The notes under the pieces are model-generated. The model saw only the letters and a program-made list of their open reading frames with translations, did no database searches and was not told the origin of the DNA. A stretch of DNA of 57,252 nt from a bacterium (GTDB lineage Bacteria; Patescibacteriota; Dojkabacteria; JAKAPS01; JAJZLI01), in contig DAIDGT010000006.1 of assembly GCA_027459825.1 (NCBI GenBank), positions 1-57,252 on the forward strand. The letters are read 5' to 3'. Made by a program: the position numbers and the translations under genes. Position 1 is the first letter of the stretch. Every line of letters begins with the position of its first letter. Shown in pieces: positions 6,675-14,292 of this stretch.

Positions 6675-6713
6675 TTGCCATGGATGGCAAATAAAATTTG
6701 CTATCCCTAGCAA
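6675..6713. promoter_or_regulatory. Site A: two dyads TTGCCA-TGGA-TGGCAA and TTGCTA-TCCC-TAGCAA
   Basis: Dyads 6675-6690 and 6698-6713, starts 23 bp apart; between P1 (-) and the ABC-like ORF (+). Confidence 0.75.
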
Positions 6714-6749
6714 TGCTTAAATTTGTTATATATATTATTGTTAAGTTGT

Positions 6750-7496
6750 ATGGATTTTGGAATTTTGCTAAATGGGTCATTTAATATTGGAGGCAAGTAT
6801 AATATAAACGCTTCTCAAGTATCTTTTCAATATTCTGATAATGTAGTCATTTTTGAAGAAGAATTTTTATCTATGTATAGAATACTGATTGAACTAATAT
6901 TATCTGTATCTAAAAATAGAGAAGCAAACTTTGAGTTAAAAGATAAAATTAAAATTTCGCAAGATACAAATATTTCTTATTTATCATCCAACTTGATATC
7001 AAATTTTAAAGGTAGTATCAAAGATTATTTAAATGTATGTTTTTATCCTTTATTAAAGATTTATTTAGAATATAACTTAGTAAAACATAAATTTACTTTG
7101 GATGATCTGAAATGGGTTAGTGAGTATACAAAAATGTCAATATTAATGGATATATATAATTTATGGAATTTTAACTATTATATAGAGGAAGTTGTTGATG
7201 GATTAAATCTGTATCCGTTTTTAAATAATACTGTCAGTGGTAATATTAATGAAATTACTCGTTATAAATTTATGCTAGCGGGTACACTGCTGTCAGATAG
7301 TAATATAATAATTATTGATAATATTAATGATTATTTAAGTCTTAATGAAATAACGTTTTTATATAATTGGATTCAAATACAAAAACGTATATTTATTTTT
7401 TTAGGACATTTGAGTATTAGTGATAATATTAAGAAAAAGAAGATTATTAAGTTTAATTCAAAAACTAATATACTTTACTCATTAGATATAATCTAA
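6750..7496 (+). CDS. Degenerate ABC-transporter ATPase-like protein
   Basis: Signature/Walker-B-like VSGNINEITRYKFMLAGTLLSDSNIIIIDNINDYLSLNE; no Walker A; start at MDFGILLNG preferred over 6723. Confidence 0.5.
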   Translation: MDFGILLNGSFNIGGKYNINASQVSFQYSDNVVIFEEEFLSMYRILIELILSVSKNREANFELKDKIKISQDTNISYLSSNLISNFKGSIKDYLNVCFYPLLKIYLEYNLVKHKFTLDDLKWVSEYTKMSILMDIYNLWNFNYYIEEVVDGLNLYPFLNNTVSGNINEITRYKFMLAGTLLSDSNIIIIDNINDYLSLNEITFLYNWIQIQKRIFIFLGHLSISDNIKKKKIIKFNSKTNILYSLDII

Positions 7497-7726
7497 CCTC
7501 TAATATCCAATATTTTATATTCAATTAAGTTCGAGTTTATATTCACTTTTACTTTATCCCCTATGCATTTTCCTATAATAGCTTGTCCTATTGGAGAGAG
7601 CTTTGTGATTTTTCCGTCAGCAGATTGATCGAGGTTATTTACTAGGGTATATATTTTTTCTCCCTTTGGAGTTTCTATTTTTACCTGACAACCAATGTCT
7701 ATCTGCCTCTTATTCTTGATATTCAT
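7493..7726 (-). CDS. Stand-alone GreA/GreB C-terminal (FKBP-like) domain protein
   Basis: QVKIETPKGEKIYTLVNN...GKITKLSPIGQAIIGKCIGDKVKVN; strong SD AGGAGGTGA; no coiled-coil N-domain. Confidence 0.75.
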   Translation of the reverse strand: MNIKNKRQIDIGCQVKIETPKGEKIYTLVNNLDQSADGKITKLSPIGQAIIGKCIGDKVKVNINSNLIEYKILDIRG

Positions 7727-7792
7727 TTTATGTAGTGTTCACCTCCTCAGTATAAAATTAGTAATTTATAACATTCTTTCTTTATTTGCGCA

Positions 7793-7831
7793 TTGCCATG
7801 GGTGGCAAATATAATTTGCCACCATTAGCAA
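7793..7831. promoter_or_regulatory. Site B: two dyads TTGCCA-TGGG-TGGCAA and TTGCCA-CCAT-TAGCAA
   Basis: Dyads 7793-7808 and 7816-7831, starts 23 bp apart, ATATAAT in the spacer; between the GreA-CTD gene (-) and P2 (+). Confidence 0.75.
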
Positions 7832-7908
7832 TGCAATCAATGTATATATATTATATAAAGTTAATTGTAGACGGAAGTCTATAGTCCTTTGATAAGGGGG
7901 AGAGGCTC

Positions 7909-8142
7909 GTGGCTAATGATGAGCGCCATAGTCTTCCTGGTGGAGGTGAATATGGGTTTAAAGGTGATGGCAGCGGTCACTGGTGGAAGGGTGATGATGG
8001 AGTTGGGTGGCAGGATGCTACTCGCCAAAAACCAGATGGAAGTGTCCGTCACTACAGTCACAAAACCAATGATGCGTCCGTTTCATATGGATGGACGTGG
8101 GGTTCTAGCAAAAAGAACGATAATCCCTCAAGTGGCAAGTGA
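7909..8142 (+). CDS. Small Gly/Trp/His-rich protein (P2)
   Basis: GTG start after AAGGGGGAG; ...GDGSGHWWKGDDGVGWQDATRQKPDGSVRHYSH...PSSGK; locally GC-rich. Confidence 0.6.
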   Translation: MANDERHSLPGGGEYGFKGDGSGHWWKGDDGVGWQDATRQKPDGSVRHYSHKTNDASVSYGWTWGSSKKNDNPSSGK

Positions 8143-8145
8143 CTT

Positions 8146-8235
8146 AGTTCCTCTGTAAAAGGAGGAACTGGTCCTGTCTAAAGGACTGGGGAACGAAGTT
8201 TTAATATGTTTTAAACATATTAATCTTTGTTCCCC
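8146..8235 (+). other. Three tandem hairpins immediately 3' of P2
   Basis: AGTTCCTC/GAGGAACT (8146-8169); GTCCT/AGGAC (8171-8186); GGGGAACGAAG/CTTTGTTCCCC (8188-8235) enclosing TTAATATG/CATATTAA. Confidence 0.75.
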
Positions 8236-8274
8236 TTTCCATAATATATAATAATATTACAAAGTGTAGAATAT

Positions 8275-9612
8275 ATGAATATGAAAAGAAATATTGGGCA
8301 TTATTTAATAAAGTTGAACAGTTCTGTAAATTATGATGAGTGGCAAGGGTATTGTAATGGATTAAAAGAATTTCTCTTGAAACATAATATATTGCTTGAT
8401 GATTTTTATGATAATGGCTTTCATAATTATGATAATTTTGAAAAAATTTTTGAGTGGCAAAACTATAACGAGAGTGAGTTAAATTTTTTTGAAGGCTTTA
8501 TATATGAGCAAGAGAAATCTCGTTATGAGTTGGTAGATTTTGCTTTATTTAAAAAACTAGTTGAAGATTTTTTTAAAGGGAAAGAGTCTATTTCACATGT
8601 ATTATGTTTAACAGATATGAAAAATACTAAGCGTTTTGGGTATTATTTTATAAAATTACGTTCTTCCTTGAGTTATGACAAATGGAAGGATTATTGTGAT
8701 GATTTAAATAAATTCCTATCTGAATATAATATTTCTATTAATGATATTCATAATAGTCAGGGAGGTTATAATAATAACCGTGGAGTAGCAGTGGGAAAGC
8801 AAAAAGCATCTGAAGGCAAATTAGACTTTTTTGAAGGTTCTTTTTATTTTACATATGGAAAAATTGATTTTTATTTATTCCAAATATTAGTCAAAAGGTT
8901 TTTCAAAAATAAAGAAAAGGTTATGTATATACAGAATTTAACTAATGTAAAACATAGGAAAAAAATCCGATACTATTTTATAGAGTTAAGTATTTCTATG
9001 AATTATGATAAATGGCAGAAGTATTGTGATTCATTAAAAGAACTCTTTTACAAATATAATATATTACTTGATAATTTTTACGATAGTCATACTAATGATT
9101 ATAATGGTCCTGATATAAATATTGGAAAGAAAATTGCAAGTAAAGAAAAGTTAAATTTTTTTGCAGGTTTTGTCTCTGTTATGGATAATCCATATCAGCC
9201 TGCAGCCAAAGTTGATTTAATTTTATTCAAAAAAATAATTAAGAGATTTTTTAAAGGAAAAGAAAATATTGTAACTATATCAGATTTAATGAGTATAGGA
9301 AATAGGAAAATAGTTGAGCATTACTTTATAGAATTAAGATCTTCTCTTAATTTTTATCAATGGAGGAAGTATTGTGATGGATTAAAGGAATTATTGTTCA
9401 AGTATAATATATTATTTTATGATTTCTTTGATAATATTTATGATATAGAAGGTGCAAAGCAAATGTCTAGTGAGGGTAAATTAAATTTCTTTGAAGGGGA
9501 AGTTTCTGTATTAGATAATCCATATGAAGAAAAGGTTGATTTTTATCTATTTCAAAAACTAATTACAATATTTTTCAAGGGAAAGGAGGATGTTGTAAGT
9601 ATCAAAAATTAA
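8275..9612 (+). CDS. Four-fold internally repeated protein, unknown function
   Basis: Four ~110 aa repeats [HY]Y[LF]I[KE]L..S..[YF].[EKQ]W..YC..L...L..[YH]NI...D....[EK]L[ND]FF.G...VD..LF..[LI]...FFKGKE. Confidence 0.75.
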   Translation: MNMKRNIGHYLIKLNSSVNYDEWQGYCNGLKEFLLKHNILLDDFYDNGFHNYDNFEKIFEWQNYNESELNFFEGFIYEQEKSRYELVDFALFKKLVEDFFKGKESISHVLCLTDMKNTKRFGYYFIKLRSSLSYDKWKDYCDDLNKFLSEYNISINDIHNSQGGYNNNRGVAVGKQKASEGKLDFFEGSFYFTYGKIDFYLFQILVKRFFKNKEKVMYIQNLTNVKHRKKIRYYFIELSISMNYDKWQKYCDSLKELFYKYNILLDNFYDSHTNDYNGPDINIGKKIASKEKLNFFAGFVSVMDNPYQPAAKVDLILFKKIIKRFFKGKENIVTISDLMSIGNRKIVEHYFIELRSSLNFYQWRKYCDGLKELLFKYNILFYDFFDNIYDIEGAKQMSSEGKLNFFEGEVSVLDNPYEEKVDFYLFQKLITIFFKGKEDVVSIKN

Positions 9613-9636
9613 AAATGATAACTTTTATTGTTTGTC

Positions 9637-10254
9637 TTATGTATTGCCAATAAGTGAGGTTGTCCTATTGTTCCAGTATTTCATATACCTTTGTATTTTT
9701 ATTGCATCTTCTTGATAAAGAGCAAATCTATATAAATCCCAGCGTTGTCCATTAAATTGTCTATGTTTTAAAAAATGACCTTCTTCGCTAAATTGTAAAT
9801 TTTGAGCAGTGCTAAGGGATAATTTGTTGTATTCATATATTTCTATATAAATCTTGTATAAGCCTAATGTTTCAAATAAATATCTTCCAAATGCATATAT
9901 TGTCTCAACTCCATAGCCTAACCTTTCAAATTTTCTTTCTAAATAGATAGTGATAAAAATATTTTGGTCAGTAGGATTATATTCGTATGCATAGACAGTA
10001 CCTATTGCAGCCTCTTGAGTTTTTCTGTATATCATCATTTGCATCAATCTGTCATTTGAAAGGTCATTATTTATCTCTCTAACGAAATTTTCATATTCAA
10101 TACTTGTTCTTCTGACTGAACATAAAGCTTGGAATCTCTCATCATTTCTCCATTTGTATAAGACAGGAATATCTTCAGGAGATGCTTCACGTAAAATGAG
10201 CCTTGGTGTTGTGATAGTTAATAGTGAGTCTATTGTTTCCTCTCTTTCCTCCAT
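9637..10254 (-). CDS. GNAT family N-acetyltransferase (RimJ/RimL-like)
   Basis: TPRLILREASPEDIPVLYKWRND...RLGYGVETIYAFGRYLFETLGLYKIYIEIYEYNKLSLSTAQNLQF. Confidence 0.85.
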   Translation of the reverse strand: MEEREETIDSLLTITTPRLILREASPEDIPVLYKWRNDERFQALCSVRRTSIEYENFVREINNDLSNDRLMQMMIYRKTQEAAIGTVYAYEYNPTDQNIFITIYLERKFERLGYGVETIYAFGRYLFETLGLYKIYIEIYEYNKLSLSTAQNLQFSEEGHFLKHRQFNGQRWDLYRFALYQEDAIKIQRYMKYWNNRTTSLIGNT

Positions 10255-10290
10255 AATATGTAATTATTGCTCAATGCATTCAATTTATCA

Positions 10291-10338
10291 TTGCTATGTG
10301 TAGCAAATAATTATTTTGTAATTTGCTAAGGTTGGCAA
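10291..10338. promoter_or_regulatory. Site C: two dyads TTGCTA-TGTG-TAGCAA and TTGCTA-AGGT-TGGCAA
   Basis: Dyads 10291-10306 and 10323-10338, upstream of an extended -10 TGATATAAT (TATAAT 10361-10366) of the regulator gene. Confidence 0.75.
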
Positions 10339-10394
10339 ATGAAAAAACAAGGTACTGTGATATAATTATGACAATTTAGGAGGATCAATAACTA

Positions 10395-11216
10395 ATGCCA
10401 ATAGATGCTTATAAAGGTAGTGTTGGTGATATTATACGAAAGCTCAGATCTCGGGCATATTCTAAAAATTTTATTCCTTTAAGTCAGTTAGATTTAGCTT
10501 TAAAGATTGGGTGGGAAAATCCATCTACTCTATCACGTATAGAAAGTGGAAAAGTTATTCCTTCAAGAAAAACATTAATTCGTATATGTAAAGCCTTAGA
10601 ACTCACTAGTGTCGAAATAAATTTCCTTCTTAAAAAATTTGAATATGATGAATATATTCCTCGTGTTAATTCTAAATATTTGCAAAAAATGATTAAGTTG
10701 TATCAGAGGGAGGTTGATCTTTATCCTTTTCCTACAATGCTGGAATATTCTCGTAAATTTATTTATACCAATGATAAAGTTTATAGATTTTTCCTAAAGA
10801 GTAATACTCAATTAAAGGAAGCTACTCTGCAAAGGATTTCTTATCTTGAAATGATATTTTTTCCTGAATATGGCTTAAAGAATAGACTTTTAAATTGGAA
10901 AGAATTGGCACAATATTTAGCTGTGAATACTAATATTTTAATACCAGAAATGGTTTCAAATCCAAACTTGGAGGAAGTTTTTAATAGGTTAGCAAATGAA
11001 CCAAATTTTAGGAAAATGTTTAAATCTGGAAAGAAATTTGCAGTTTCAAATTTGAGGGTGCATCATGTACCTTTCGTATATGATCATCCTGATATTGGTA
11101 AGATTTCATTTTCGATAAGTCAATTTCCATTGTTACTAGACAATAGATTTTATATTATGCAATTTATGCCAACAACAGATTTCGATGTTGGATTGTATAG
11201 AGATTATATGAAATAG
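10395..11216 (+). CDS. XRE-family HTH regulator with MLTR-like ligand-binding C-domain
   Basis: LSQLDLALKIGWENPSTLSRIESGKVIPSRKTLIRICKALEL; C-terminal layout (RISYLEMIFFPEYGLKNRLLNWKELAQYLA...FRKMFKSGKKFAV...HHVPFVYDHPDIGKISFSISQFPLLLD) recalls MmyB-like domains; SD AGGAGG. Confidence 0.75.
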   Translation: MPIDAYKGSVGDIIRKLRSRAYSKNFIPLSQLDLALKIGWENPSTLSRIESGKVIPSRKTLIRICKALELTSVEINFLLKKFEYDEYIPRVNSKYLQKMIKLYQREVDLYPFPTMLEYSRKFIYTNDKVYRFFLKSNTQLKEATLQRISYLEMIFFPEYGLKNRLLNWKELAQYLAVNTNILIPEMVSNPNLEEVFNRLANEPNFRKMFKSGKKFAVSNLRVHHVPFVYDHPDIGKISFSISQFPLLLDNRFYIMQFMPTTDFDVGLYRDYMK

Positions 11217-12096: not shown

Positions 12097-14292
12097 ATGG
12101 TTGACATAATAATCTCTCTTATCGTTGTTTCTATTATAAGCTTAGCTTTTGGAATTACACTGACTTTTTTTCAAAGGATATCTTATTATAAGTATTATTT
12201 CATTGCTTGGATTTGTGCTGGTATATGGCCACTCTTTATAGCTTTATATTACTCATTTCCAGGGGACAAGATTTTATTGGCCTATATCCACTATACTGTG
12301 GTGTTATTTATCCCTGTGTTTTTACTGCAATTTATTACATCTTGGAAAAACTCTTTAAACGATTTTAAAGATAATTTTTTAACTTTATATATGTTACTTT
12401 TGGTAAATGTTTTATTTGCATTTTTTCTAGCAATACCACATTTTAGTTTTGTCTATGAAGTTGCATATAATGTTGTTAAATTTAATTTTTCATACATTCT
12501 ATATTCTGCTTACTTCCTTCTTGTTATACTAGTCTTTGCTTATAAATTATTTTCTTTGTATCTTGAAAGGTCTGGTGTATTAAAAGTTCAAGTTTTCTAT
12601 ATAATACTTTCAGTTGTTCCTGCAGTCACTACAGGCATTCTTTTTAATATTATCCTTCCATTTTTTACAAATTATAAATATATATATATTGGGCCATATG
12701 GATTAGTTCTCTCTTTTGGAATGTTTTATTTCTTTATGCAAAAATATAGTTTTTGGGGGAGAGCAGTAATAATCAAAACAATTATTAGATACTTCTTGCT
12801 TTCTATTTTAAGTTATGCAACTTTTTATGCAATTACGTTACTAGAAAAAGCATTATTTCATAGTGTATTTGCTACTGGATCATATATATTTGGAAGTTTT
12901 ATTGCTTTTCTCTTTGTTTATTTATTTGTAGAGATAAGCCATATTTCAGATTATAGTCTTAAAATTGATAGTGAATTAAATGATTTTGAAGATTATCTTC
13001 TTGTTGAAGTTGATGTTAATAATGTTACTAATGCAATAAAAGAAGTTTTAAAAAAATCTTTTGGGGTTGATTCTGTTGATATTTATTTGAATCAACATCA
13101 AAGTGTTGGTGTTGGAGATAATTTGGAAGCATTTTCATTACTTACAAGTCGTTTTGGTGGTATTTTATTTTTAGAGCAAATATTTTACAGAAGTAAATCA
13201 TTAGGATTAAGTTGGGATGAAGTTAATCTTGTATCTCGTTTGATGGAATCTGGGTATTCTGTTGTTCTTAAAAGTAAAGAGGTAGAGATATATATTCATA
13301 CTAAGAAAGACCTTACTCCTTTCAGTACTGAGGAGGAAATAGTATTGCGTAGGATCTCAAAATATCTATTTATTACATTTCAAAAATTAGGCCTTATTGG
13401 TGGTCTTCAAGATAGAATTAACCAAGCTACTTATGAATTGGAAAGAAAAAATAGAGATTTGGAAAAGGCAAATGAAGAGATGAAAGGAGTTGATAAAATG
13501 AAGGACGACTTATTATCAATTGCTTCTCATGAACTTAGAACTCCTGCTAGCATTGTTAAGGGGAATGTTTATATGGCTAAATCTTCTATAGATAAGTTGA
13601 AAATTTCTGATAAAAAAGACAAGGATGAAATTGATAAGTTAGAAAGGTATATTTCACGTTCTGTTGAGAGTATAGAAAATGAAATAAGAATAGTAAATAC
13701 TCTACTTGAAGCCTCAAGATTGGGAAAAGAGGATATGAGTATCTTTCCAGAGTATGTTGACATTGATGCAATGATTTCTTCCCAGATAGATGCATTTAAA
13801 AAAGATGCTGATGTAAAAGGTATTCAGTTAAAGCAAATAGTTGGTCATGTTGGAATGTCTGTTGCTGATAAAACAAAGATAGAAGAGGTAATAGGAAACC
13901 TTATTACCAATGCAATTAAATATTCTGAGCATGGTACAGTTGAAGTGAGTACAGAGAAGAATGACAAAGATGTTATTGTACATGTTAAAGATCAGGGAGT
14001 TGGAATTAAAAATGAAGATATTGCAACTCTATTCCAGAAATTCCATAGGTTACATAATTATACAGGGGATCCTAGTGATCCTCAGCACTTACTAGTTAGA
14101 CCTGGTGGTACTGGGTTAGGTTTATATGTTGTAAAAGGAATAATAGAAAGACATGGTGGTAAGGTTTGGGTAAGCAGTAAAGTTGGAGAAGGTTCAACTT
14201 TTTCATTTTCGCTACCTAACAAAAAATTAGAAATCAGTAATGATGATGGTGTTTCAAAGGATATGTTTACCGTATTGGGATTACGAAAGTAA
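12097..14292 (+). CDS. Membrane sensor histidine kinase
   Basis: N-terminal multi-TM; HisKA LLSIASHELRTPASIVKG; HATPase GNLITNAIKYS, VKDQGVGIKNEDI, GGTGLGLYVVKGIIERHGGKVWV. Confidence 0.92.
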   Translation: MVDIIISLIVVSIISLAFGITLTFFQRISYYKYYFIAWICAGIWPLFIALYYSFPGDKILLAYIHYTVVLFIPVFLLQFITSWKNSLNDFKDNFLTLYMLLLVNVLFAFFLAIPHFSFVYEVAYNVVKFNFSYILYSAYFLLVILVFAYKLFSLYLERSGVLKVQVFYIILSVVPAVTTGILFNIILPFFTNYKYIYIGPYGLVLSFGMFYFFMQKYSFWGRAVIIKTIIRYFLLSILSYATFYAITLLEKALFHSVFATGSYIFGSFIAFLFVYLFVEISHISDYSLKIDSELNDFEDYLLVEVDVNNVTNAIKEVLKKSFGVDSVDIYLNQHQSVGVGDNLEAFSLLTSRFGGILFLEQIFYRSKSLGLSWDEVNLVSRLMESGYSVVLKSKEVEIYIHTKKDLTPFSTEEEIVLRRISKYLFITFQKLGLIGGLQDRINQATYELERKNRDLEKANEEMKGVDKMKDDLLSIASHELRTPASIVKGNVYMAKSSIDKLKISDKKDKDEIDKLERYISRSVESIENEIRIVNTLLEASRLGKEDMSIFPEYVDIDAMISSQIDAFKKDADVKGIQLKQIVGHVGMSVADKTKIEEVIGNLITNAIKYSEHGTVEVSTEKNDKDVIVHVKDQGVGIKNEDIATLFQKFHRLHNYTGDPSDPQHLLVRPGGTGLGLYVVKGIIERHGGKVWVSSKVGEGSTFSFSLPNKKLEISNDDGVSKDMFTVLGLRK

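Follow-up and report, generated by a model that had tools for sequence, protein, structure and literature searches.

The window analysed here (the whole 57,252-nt stretch, contig C6 of the 763,742-bp, 32-contig draft genome G000) contains seven exact copies of a palindromic dyad, TTGCYA-N4-TRGCAA (TTGCYANNNNTRGCAA). Six of them, correctly placed in a preliminary description of this DNA, match the consensus without mismatches and are paired at three sites, with start-to-start distances of 23, 23, and 32 bp at sites A, B, and C, respectively, each site lying between divergent genes as described. At site A, dyad A1 (6675–6690) is promoter-proximal for the minus-strand gene of P1 (6362–6571), a His/Gly-rich small protein of 69 aa with no family match, and A2 (6698–6713) for the plus-strand gene of an ABC-like protein (6747–7496, start codon uncertain). 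Site B separates a minus-strand gene (7493–7726) coding for a protein that comprises only the GreA/GreB C-terminal domain (GreA-CTD; PF01272, 1.4e-14), served by dyad B1 (7793–7808), from the plus-strand gene of P2 (7909–8142), a 77-aa small protein with a GTG start, served by B2 (7816–7831). At site C, the exact dyads C1 (10291–10306) and C2 (10323–10338) are promoter-proximal for a minus-strand GNAT acetyltransferase gene (9637–10254; PF13302, 1.3e-15) and for a plus-strand gene of an MltR/MmyB-family regulator, XRE-MLTR (10395–11216), which is proposed to activate both the regulon and its own gene. The seventh copy (2103–2118), overlooked earlier, faces a minus-strand open reading frame (ORF) for a 127-aa protein with CxxC pairs (1674–2057) that has no match in a Pfam search. 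This protein, P1, GreA-CTD, P2, and the acetyltransferase are the predicted targets.

Control of the flanking genes by the dyads, as originally suggested, is supported for most of them by a -10 element at the expected distance. Extended -10 elements are found on the minus strand for the 127-aa ORF (TGTTATAAT, 2081–2076) and on the plus strand for the XRE-MLTR gene (TGATATAAT, hexamer 10361–10366), while GreA-CTD has TGTTATAAA at 7770–7765, P2 has TATAAA at 7854–7859, and the acetyltransferase gene has AATAAT at +22. The hexamer of P1 is weak (TAATAT, 6652–6647). The case is weakest for the ABC-like gene, for which no good -10 was found at +22 from A2, the nearest being TATTAT at +19. The view of the region as an accessory island applies only to the P1/ABC-like segment, which is extra in G000; the remainder, comprising GreA-CTD, P2 (in shortened form), a 445-aa protein, the acetyltransferase, XRE-MLTR, and a histidine kinase, shows synteny with G001, the sister species.

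The dyad was searched for in the family members G000–G007, of which G000 and G001 share a genus, and in other genomes, including G009 from another family; by their XRE loci, G001, G002, G004, and G009 correspond to MAS3.bin101, LSA3.bin44, FK3.bin15, and "Patescibacteria group bacterium," respectively, and the family is on this basis taken to be Patescibacterial (CPR, candidate phyla radiation). The exact motif occurs at 13 places in G000, versus 0 for a reversed control pattern. The 90 genomes outside the order contain 52 exact copies, and with this mean of 0.58 per genome the probability of at least 13 copies is about 1e-14. Exact copies in G000 to G007 number 13, 10, 2, 0, 5, 1, 6, and 3, with reversed controls at 0 in all eight. 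This enrichment, together with targets conserved across genera, supports the view that the dyads mark a regulon, the reality of which is nearly certain. Its proposed centre on the island did not stand: the sites are spread over the genome and the family, before secretion, peptide maturation and export genes, which rules out an island-only regulon. One match, C12:20501, is probably a chance occurrence, since it is located inside a DNA methyltransferase ORF. Genes for a cytosine methyltransferase, a Vsr-like nuclease and a serine recombinase are consecutive there (L008, C12:19000–23230), probably representing a mobile restriction-modification element.

The position of the dyads relative to the promoters was assessed by reading flanks outward from each dyad and scoring TATAAT-like hexamers, with dinucleotide shuffles as the control. 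A -10 hexamer starts 21–22 nt past the dyad end in 19 of 74 flanks, compared to 4.1 in shuffles, and none of 2000 shuffles reached this count at any pair of offsets. With extended -10 elements included, 22 strong -10 elements fall at offset 22 and at most nine at every other offset. The data were also split by genome group, because orthologous promoters are not independent. The pooled flanks of G002, G004, G006, and G007 give 19 of 30 against 2.5 expected, G001 alone gives 4 against 1.3 (P 0.03), and G000 alone gives 6 of 24 against 1.5, with P 0.001 at the preset offset and 0.14 at any offset. No -35 signal was detected in these flanks, the mean best -35 match being 2.85 versus 3.04 for random sequence. 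The dyad centre is near -42 when the start is inferred from a -10 element at -12. A binding site centred near -42 occupies the position of a class II activator, and the geometry points to such an activator rather than to a simple repressor. Activation is preferred over repression because of this position, the fixed -10 spacing and the missing -35 element. The same arrangement of dyad and -10 precedes the XRE-MLTR gene, and the predicted loop is therefore one of positive feedback.

Outside the window, the dyad at C1:53451 in G000 precedes the pilin gene (PF18895) of a type IV secretion system (T4SS); a TraG P-loop ATPase is encoded downstream. T4SS pilin genes lie behind a dyad also in G001, G002, and G007. 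Two further G000 dyads stand before candidate genes for ribosomally synthesized and post-translationally modified peptides (RiPPs): C1:105641 is located before a gene whose 72-aa product weakly matches the YydF RiPP leader, and C24:78 before a precursor-YcaO-SagB-ABC-F operon. The rest of the C24 ABC-F gene appears to lie on C20, followed by the dyad C20:1431; in G001, an ABC-F gene is likewise followed by a dyad and by a homologue of the 151-aa gene of C19. Homologues of GreA-CTD stand behind a dyad in G000, G001, G002, and G004. Other targets are YcaO clusters (G000; G004, with an S9 peptidase first), ATP-grasp peptide maturase clusters with METLE... precursors (G004 and G006), S9 peptidases (G004 and G006), ABC exporters (G006 and G007, one adjoining a C39 peptidase), and P2-type small proteins (G000, G004, and G006). 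YcaO matches were obtained in G000, G004, and G003; the ATP-grasp maturase gave strong matches in G004 and G006 and a split match in G003. Species differ in RiPP class but retain the regulatory site. The pilin operon of G000 is divergent from an AbiEi/AbiEii-type toxin-antitoxin pair with its own -35/-10-like promoter (L005:9523–11213), and in G001 the pilin gene has a different AbiE-like pair upstream (L093).

The C24 YcaO protein exceeds the cut-off of PF02624 (9.8e-43), and its assignment as SagD-type (TIGR03604, 8.1e-57) has a score of 192.8 bits, below the cut-off of 219. The SagB-type dehydrogenase scores 103.8 bits with TIGR03605, over the 78.4 cut-off. Immediately before the YcaO gene and behind a strong Shine-Dalgarno sequence is encoded a precursor with a Cys-rich end, METLKNEIKEGITNLVNSDIDSQTIEKCSAGCYPCGGK. 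No E1-like/RiPP recognition element (RRE) partner (SagC) was found among the ORFs listed for the 2.8-kb contig C24, the operon being split over contigs. The maturases of the clusters on G004 C23 and G006 C8 have TIGR04187, an ATP-grasp ribosomal peptide maturase family, as the best family (4.1e-46 and 1.4e-48), at 158–166 bits and under its cut-off of 350. The core signature published for the CPR, TxxxTx(6-10)Dx(1-4)D, is absent: by eye, the G004 and G006 cores (QTYST...) contain no TxxxT. Exceptions to the signature are noted in that work (PMC8939145), and these clusters are therefore named graspetide-type only. To look for precursors, the sequence was followed from each dyad up to the first Shine-Dalgarno sequence; this yields peptides missed by family profiles, namely METLKNEIKEGITNLVNSDIDSQTIEKCSAGCYPCGGK in G000 and, before the S9 peptidase-YcaO genes of G004, METLELKDLS...CRCSADKECDDGG....

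The degenerate ABC-like protein of the window is related to the N-terminal half of the YcaO-linked ABC-F protein (28% over 167 aa, E 2e-9). It has no obvious Walker A motif and is perhaps an immunity relic or a decoy.

P2 is preceded by a 5' leader (7866–7908, plus strand; conserved stretch 7864–7911) with ATTGTAG..., a hairpin, AGTCCTTT, and a second hairpin partly over the Shine-Dalgarno sequence. The P2 relatives in G004 and G006 share a leader carrying AGTCCTTT. Outside the window, the conserved leader with ATTGTAG..., AGTCCTTT and a Shine-Dalgarno sequence is located at L076:1996–2043, L078:7232–7281 (minus strand), and L088:5058–5104. One copy of AGTCCTTT occurs in each of G000, G001, G004, and G006, always behind a dyad, and among 100 genomes in one more, G040, which falls outside the order. 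The G000, G001, and G006 leaders are predicted to fold into two hairpins, and the Shine-Dalgarno sequence is partly enclosed in the second; in G004 the first hairpin is not formed. As judged from these folds, the leader could be a translational control element. The structure model of P2 itself is of low confidence (predicted local distance difference test score, pLDDT, 47).

XRE-MLTR has an N-terminal helix-turn-helix (HTH) domain (PF01381, 2.3e-10, over the cut-off) and a C-terminal match to MLTR_LBD (PF17765, 18.9 bits, below the 26.3 cut-off). Its family profile matched a single PDB entry, 3pxp (positions 9–256, 1.3e-9), and 3pxp was also the top Foldseek match of its structure model (6.3e-13, probability 1.00). 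The protein is a relative of MltR/MmyB over its whole length, with a PAS-like C-terminal domain. The crystal structure of MltR contains a fatty-acid-type ligand; MmyB is an activator of methylenomycin genes thought to bind pseudo-palindromes (PMC3406030). Relatives were not found in viral contigs, nor in a single-protein scan of genome contigs; an alignment-based scan recovered MAS3.bin101, LSA3.bin44, FK3.bin15, and CRAIB_MAG31, along with distant HTH matches. Near the XRE-MLTR genes of G002, G004, and G097 (L085:12425–14352, L090:7390–9920, and L022/L046) are genes for ThiF-like, acyltransferase-like or similar enzymes and for histidine kinases, the equivalent in the window being the GNAT acetyltransferase and a histidine kinase (12097–14292); they may form a signal-making and sensing module.

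Three observations link this regulator to the dyad. The site C pair precedes its gene, as noted before, and the same paired dyads with 32-bp spacing are conserved in G001, so that they are present in both species of the genus. In G009, an exact dyad is located about 180 bp upstream of a gene for an HTH-only XRE homologue, in which the GWENPSTLSRIE segment is identical to that of XRE-MLTR. Finally, an HTH_3 search revealed no other conventional XRE factor in G000, the second match being only a 308-aa RodZ-like protein. In G097, a distant XRE gene lies 2.2 kb away from a dyad, which was dismissed as chance because it falls inside a coding gene.

The proposed mechanism is as follows. The dyad would be an activator binding site, its centre some 42 bp before the transcription start, at promoters with a -10, often an extended -10, and without a -35 box, where the bound protein would recruit RNA polymerase in class II style. 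The activator in this genus is most likely XRE-MLTR, which through its PAS-like ligand domain may respond to a small molecule, perhaps fatty-acid-like. It would raise its own expression and turn on the T4SS pilin operon, the YcaO/SagB/ABC-F RiPP cluster with its Cys-rich precursor, GreA-CTD, the acetyltransferase, and several small proteins, possibly against hosts or rivals. We put the probability of this explanation as a whole at about 0.65, and regard XRE-MLTR as the binder and activator with the same confidence.

Several points weigh against it. A dyad upstream of orthologous regulators, although present in G001 and with the HTH-only homologue of G009, is not found as an exact copy directly upstream of the XRE genes of G002 and G004. 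XRE-MLTR was not detected by profile search in G006 and G007, which have six and three dyads, respectively, and among their inspected HTH_3 proteins none has the GWENPSTLSRIE segment; next to the phosphomannomutase gene, at the position of the XRE genes in G002, there is S9-peptidase sequence. These two genomes, which carry dyads without a detectable copy, are the main objection to XRE-MLTR as the binder. In addition, the spacing in G000 loses significance when any offset is allowed, orthologous promoters do not count as independent data, every promoter element is a prediction, and the genomes are drafts.

The most serious alternative is that both the regulon and its activator geometry exist as described, but another family-wide transcription factor is the binder, and the XRE-MLTR gene is just one of its targets. 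We consider this appreciably less probable, about a one-in-four prospect, even though dyads with the clearest -10 spacing are present in G006 and G007, where XRE-MLTR was not found. No candidate for such a factor was found. MarR, the sole family examined, has a distribution that does not follow the dyads: MarR_2 proteins are present also in the dyad-poor G003 and G005, and the dyad-bearing G002 showed no 140-aa MarR_2. No dyad with up to two mismatches was located near the MarR genes examined, and MarR was rejected as the binder. Nor would another factor account for the G009 dyad next to the gene of the HTH-only XRE homologue.

It is unlikely that the dyads are repressor operators over the -35 region, with the XRE protein shutting off its own gene and the others until released by an inducer. 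The dyads do overlap this region, and autorepression is common among XRE proteins (PMC12565409). However, -35 matches in the promoters do not exceed random expectation, the near-constant 21–22 nt spacing is expected of an activator and unnecessary for a repressor, and MmyB, the precedent within the family, acts as an activator. That the dyads are pieces of dispersed repeats or mobile elements without a regulatory role is very improbable and largely refuted by their fixed relation to -10 hexamers. Several sites do lie near contig ends, and about 90 bp around one site are common to C19 and C20, but the flanks differ from site to site and positions before orthologous genes are conserved across genera.

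Activation by XRE-MLTR would have parallels in known systems. The lambda CI protein at PRM is the textbook case of class II activation by an XRE protein; the dyad centre near -42, the paired sites and the predicted autoregulation resemble it, whereas homology is limited to the HTH fold, and here the ligand domain is MltR-type and the targets are genome-wide. The likeness to MmyB/MltR (PDB 3pxp) comprises the XRE-type HTH and PAS-like domain over the full length, a putative palindromic target (in palindromy only, the B-box sequence not being compared), and a link to peptide or antibiotic-type genes (PMC3406030). The present system differs in belonging to Patescibacteria and in its predicted control, in trans, of a T4SS and of RiPPs from several classes instead of one neighbouring antibiotic cluster. 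The C24 operon resembles SagBCD-type azol(in)e clusters (TOMM/LAP; thiazole/oxazole-modified microcins/linear azol(in)e-containing peptides) in its SagD-type YcaO, SagB dehydrogenase and short precursor with a Cys-rich end, but no E1-like SagC was seen on the contig, an ABC-F protein replaces the usual ABC exporter, and the predicted control by the dyad is in trans. The G004 and G006 clusters share an ATP-grasp maturase and a small upstream precursor with the CPR graspetide clusters (PMC8939145), from which they differ in the core signature and in standing behind a common regulatory site. The secretion genes agree with the Patescibacterial T4SS (PMC12102498) in the VirB2-like pilin (PF18895/PF04956) and the downstream TraG P-loop (VirB4-like) ATPase; a conserved cis-regulatory site precedes the pilin gene here, whereas the accessible part of that account describes none. 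YcaO genes of CPR in acid mine drainage sediments were read as thioamidation genes (PMC12153355), while here YcaO occurs with SagB and a Cys-rich precursor.

To our knowledge, gene regulation in ultrasmall Patescibacteria is hardly known. MmyB/MltR regulators (PMC3406030), Patescibacterial T4SS (PMC12102498), CPR graspetides (PMC8939145), and CPR YcaO genes (PMC12153355) have been described, and a partial literature search found no description of a shared regulatory site joining such genes in Patescibacteria. Functions of the CPR graspetides are unassigned (PMC8939145), and according to a 2024 review the mechanisms governing differentiation between Patescibacteria cell states "remain completely unknown" (PMC11665869). 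The presence of one palindromic switch before T4SS genes, candidate antibiotic-peptide genes and, in one genus, the gene of an MmyB-type regulator suggests a single activator and a host- or rival-directed programme. The conserved cis-site offers a testable handle, which groups T4SS, RiPP and small-protein genes, points to a candidate regulator and leads to precursors missed by profiles. More tentatively, and with the odds somewhat against it, an MmyB-type activator with positive feedback could be a family master switch firing the T4SS, several RiPP classes, export and self-protection in a bistable programme against hosts or rivals, with RiPP classes exchanged between species and the regulatory site kept. 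If so, the programme may have a connection to how cells change between the swarmer and host-attached states.

Some minor features accompany the dyads. About 90 bp including a dyad are common, in inverted orientation, to two G000 contigs (C19:9986–10076 and C20:1371–1446, dyads C19:10000 and C20:1431), and several family dyads are located at the ends of contigs, a hint that promoter regions are repeated or that strains vary. Across its dyad, the HTH-only XRE gene of G009 is divergent from a gene (L077:9048–9344) for a 98-aa W/Y/H/D-rich protein of P2-like composition. The 445-aa protein of the window (8275–9612), conserved in G001, has no family match and is composed of repeated "YDxWxxYCDxLKEfLxKYNIlLdDFyDn" units; W-rich repeat proteins ("WIYHWFIIKNxF") are encoded near dyads in G004 and G006.

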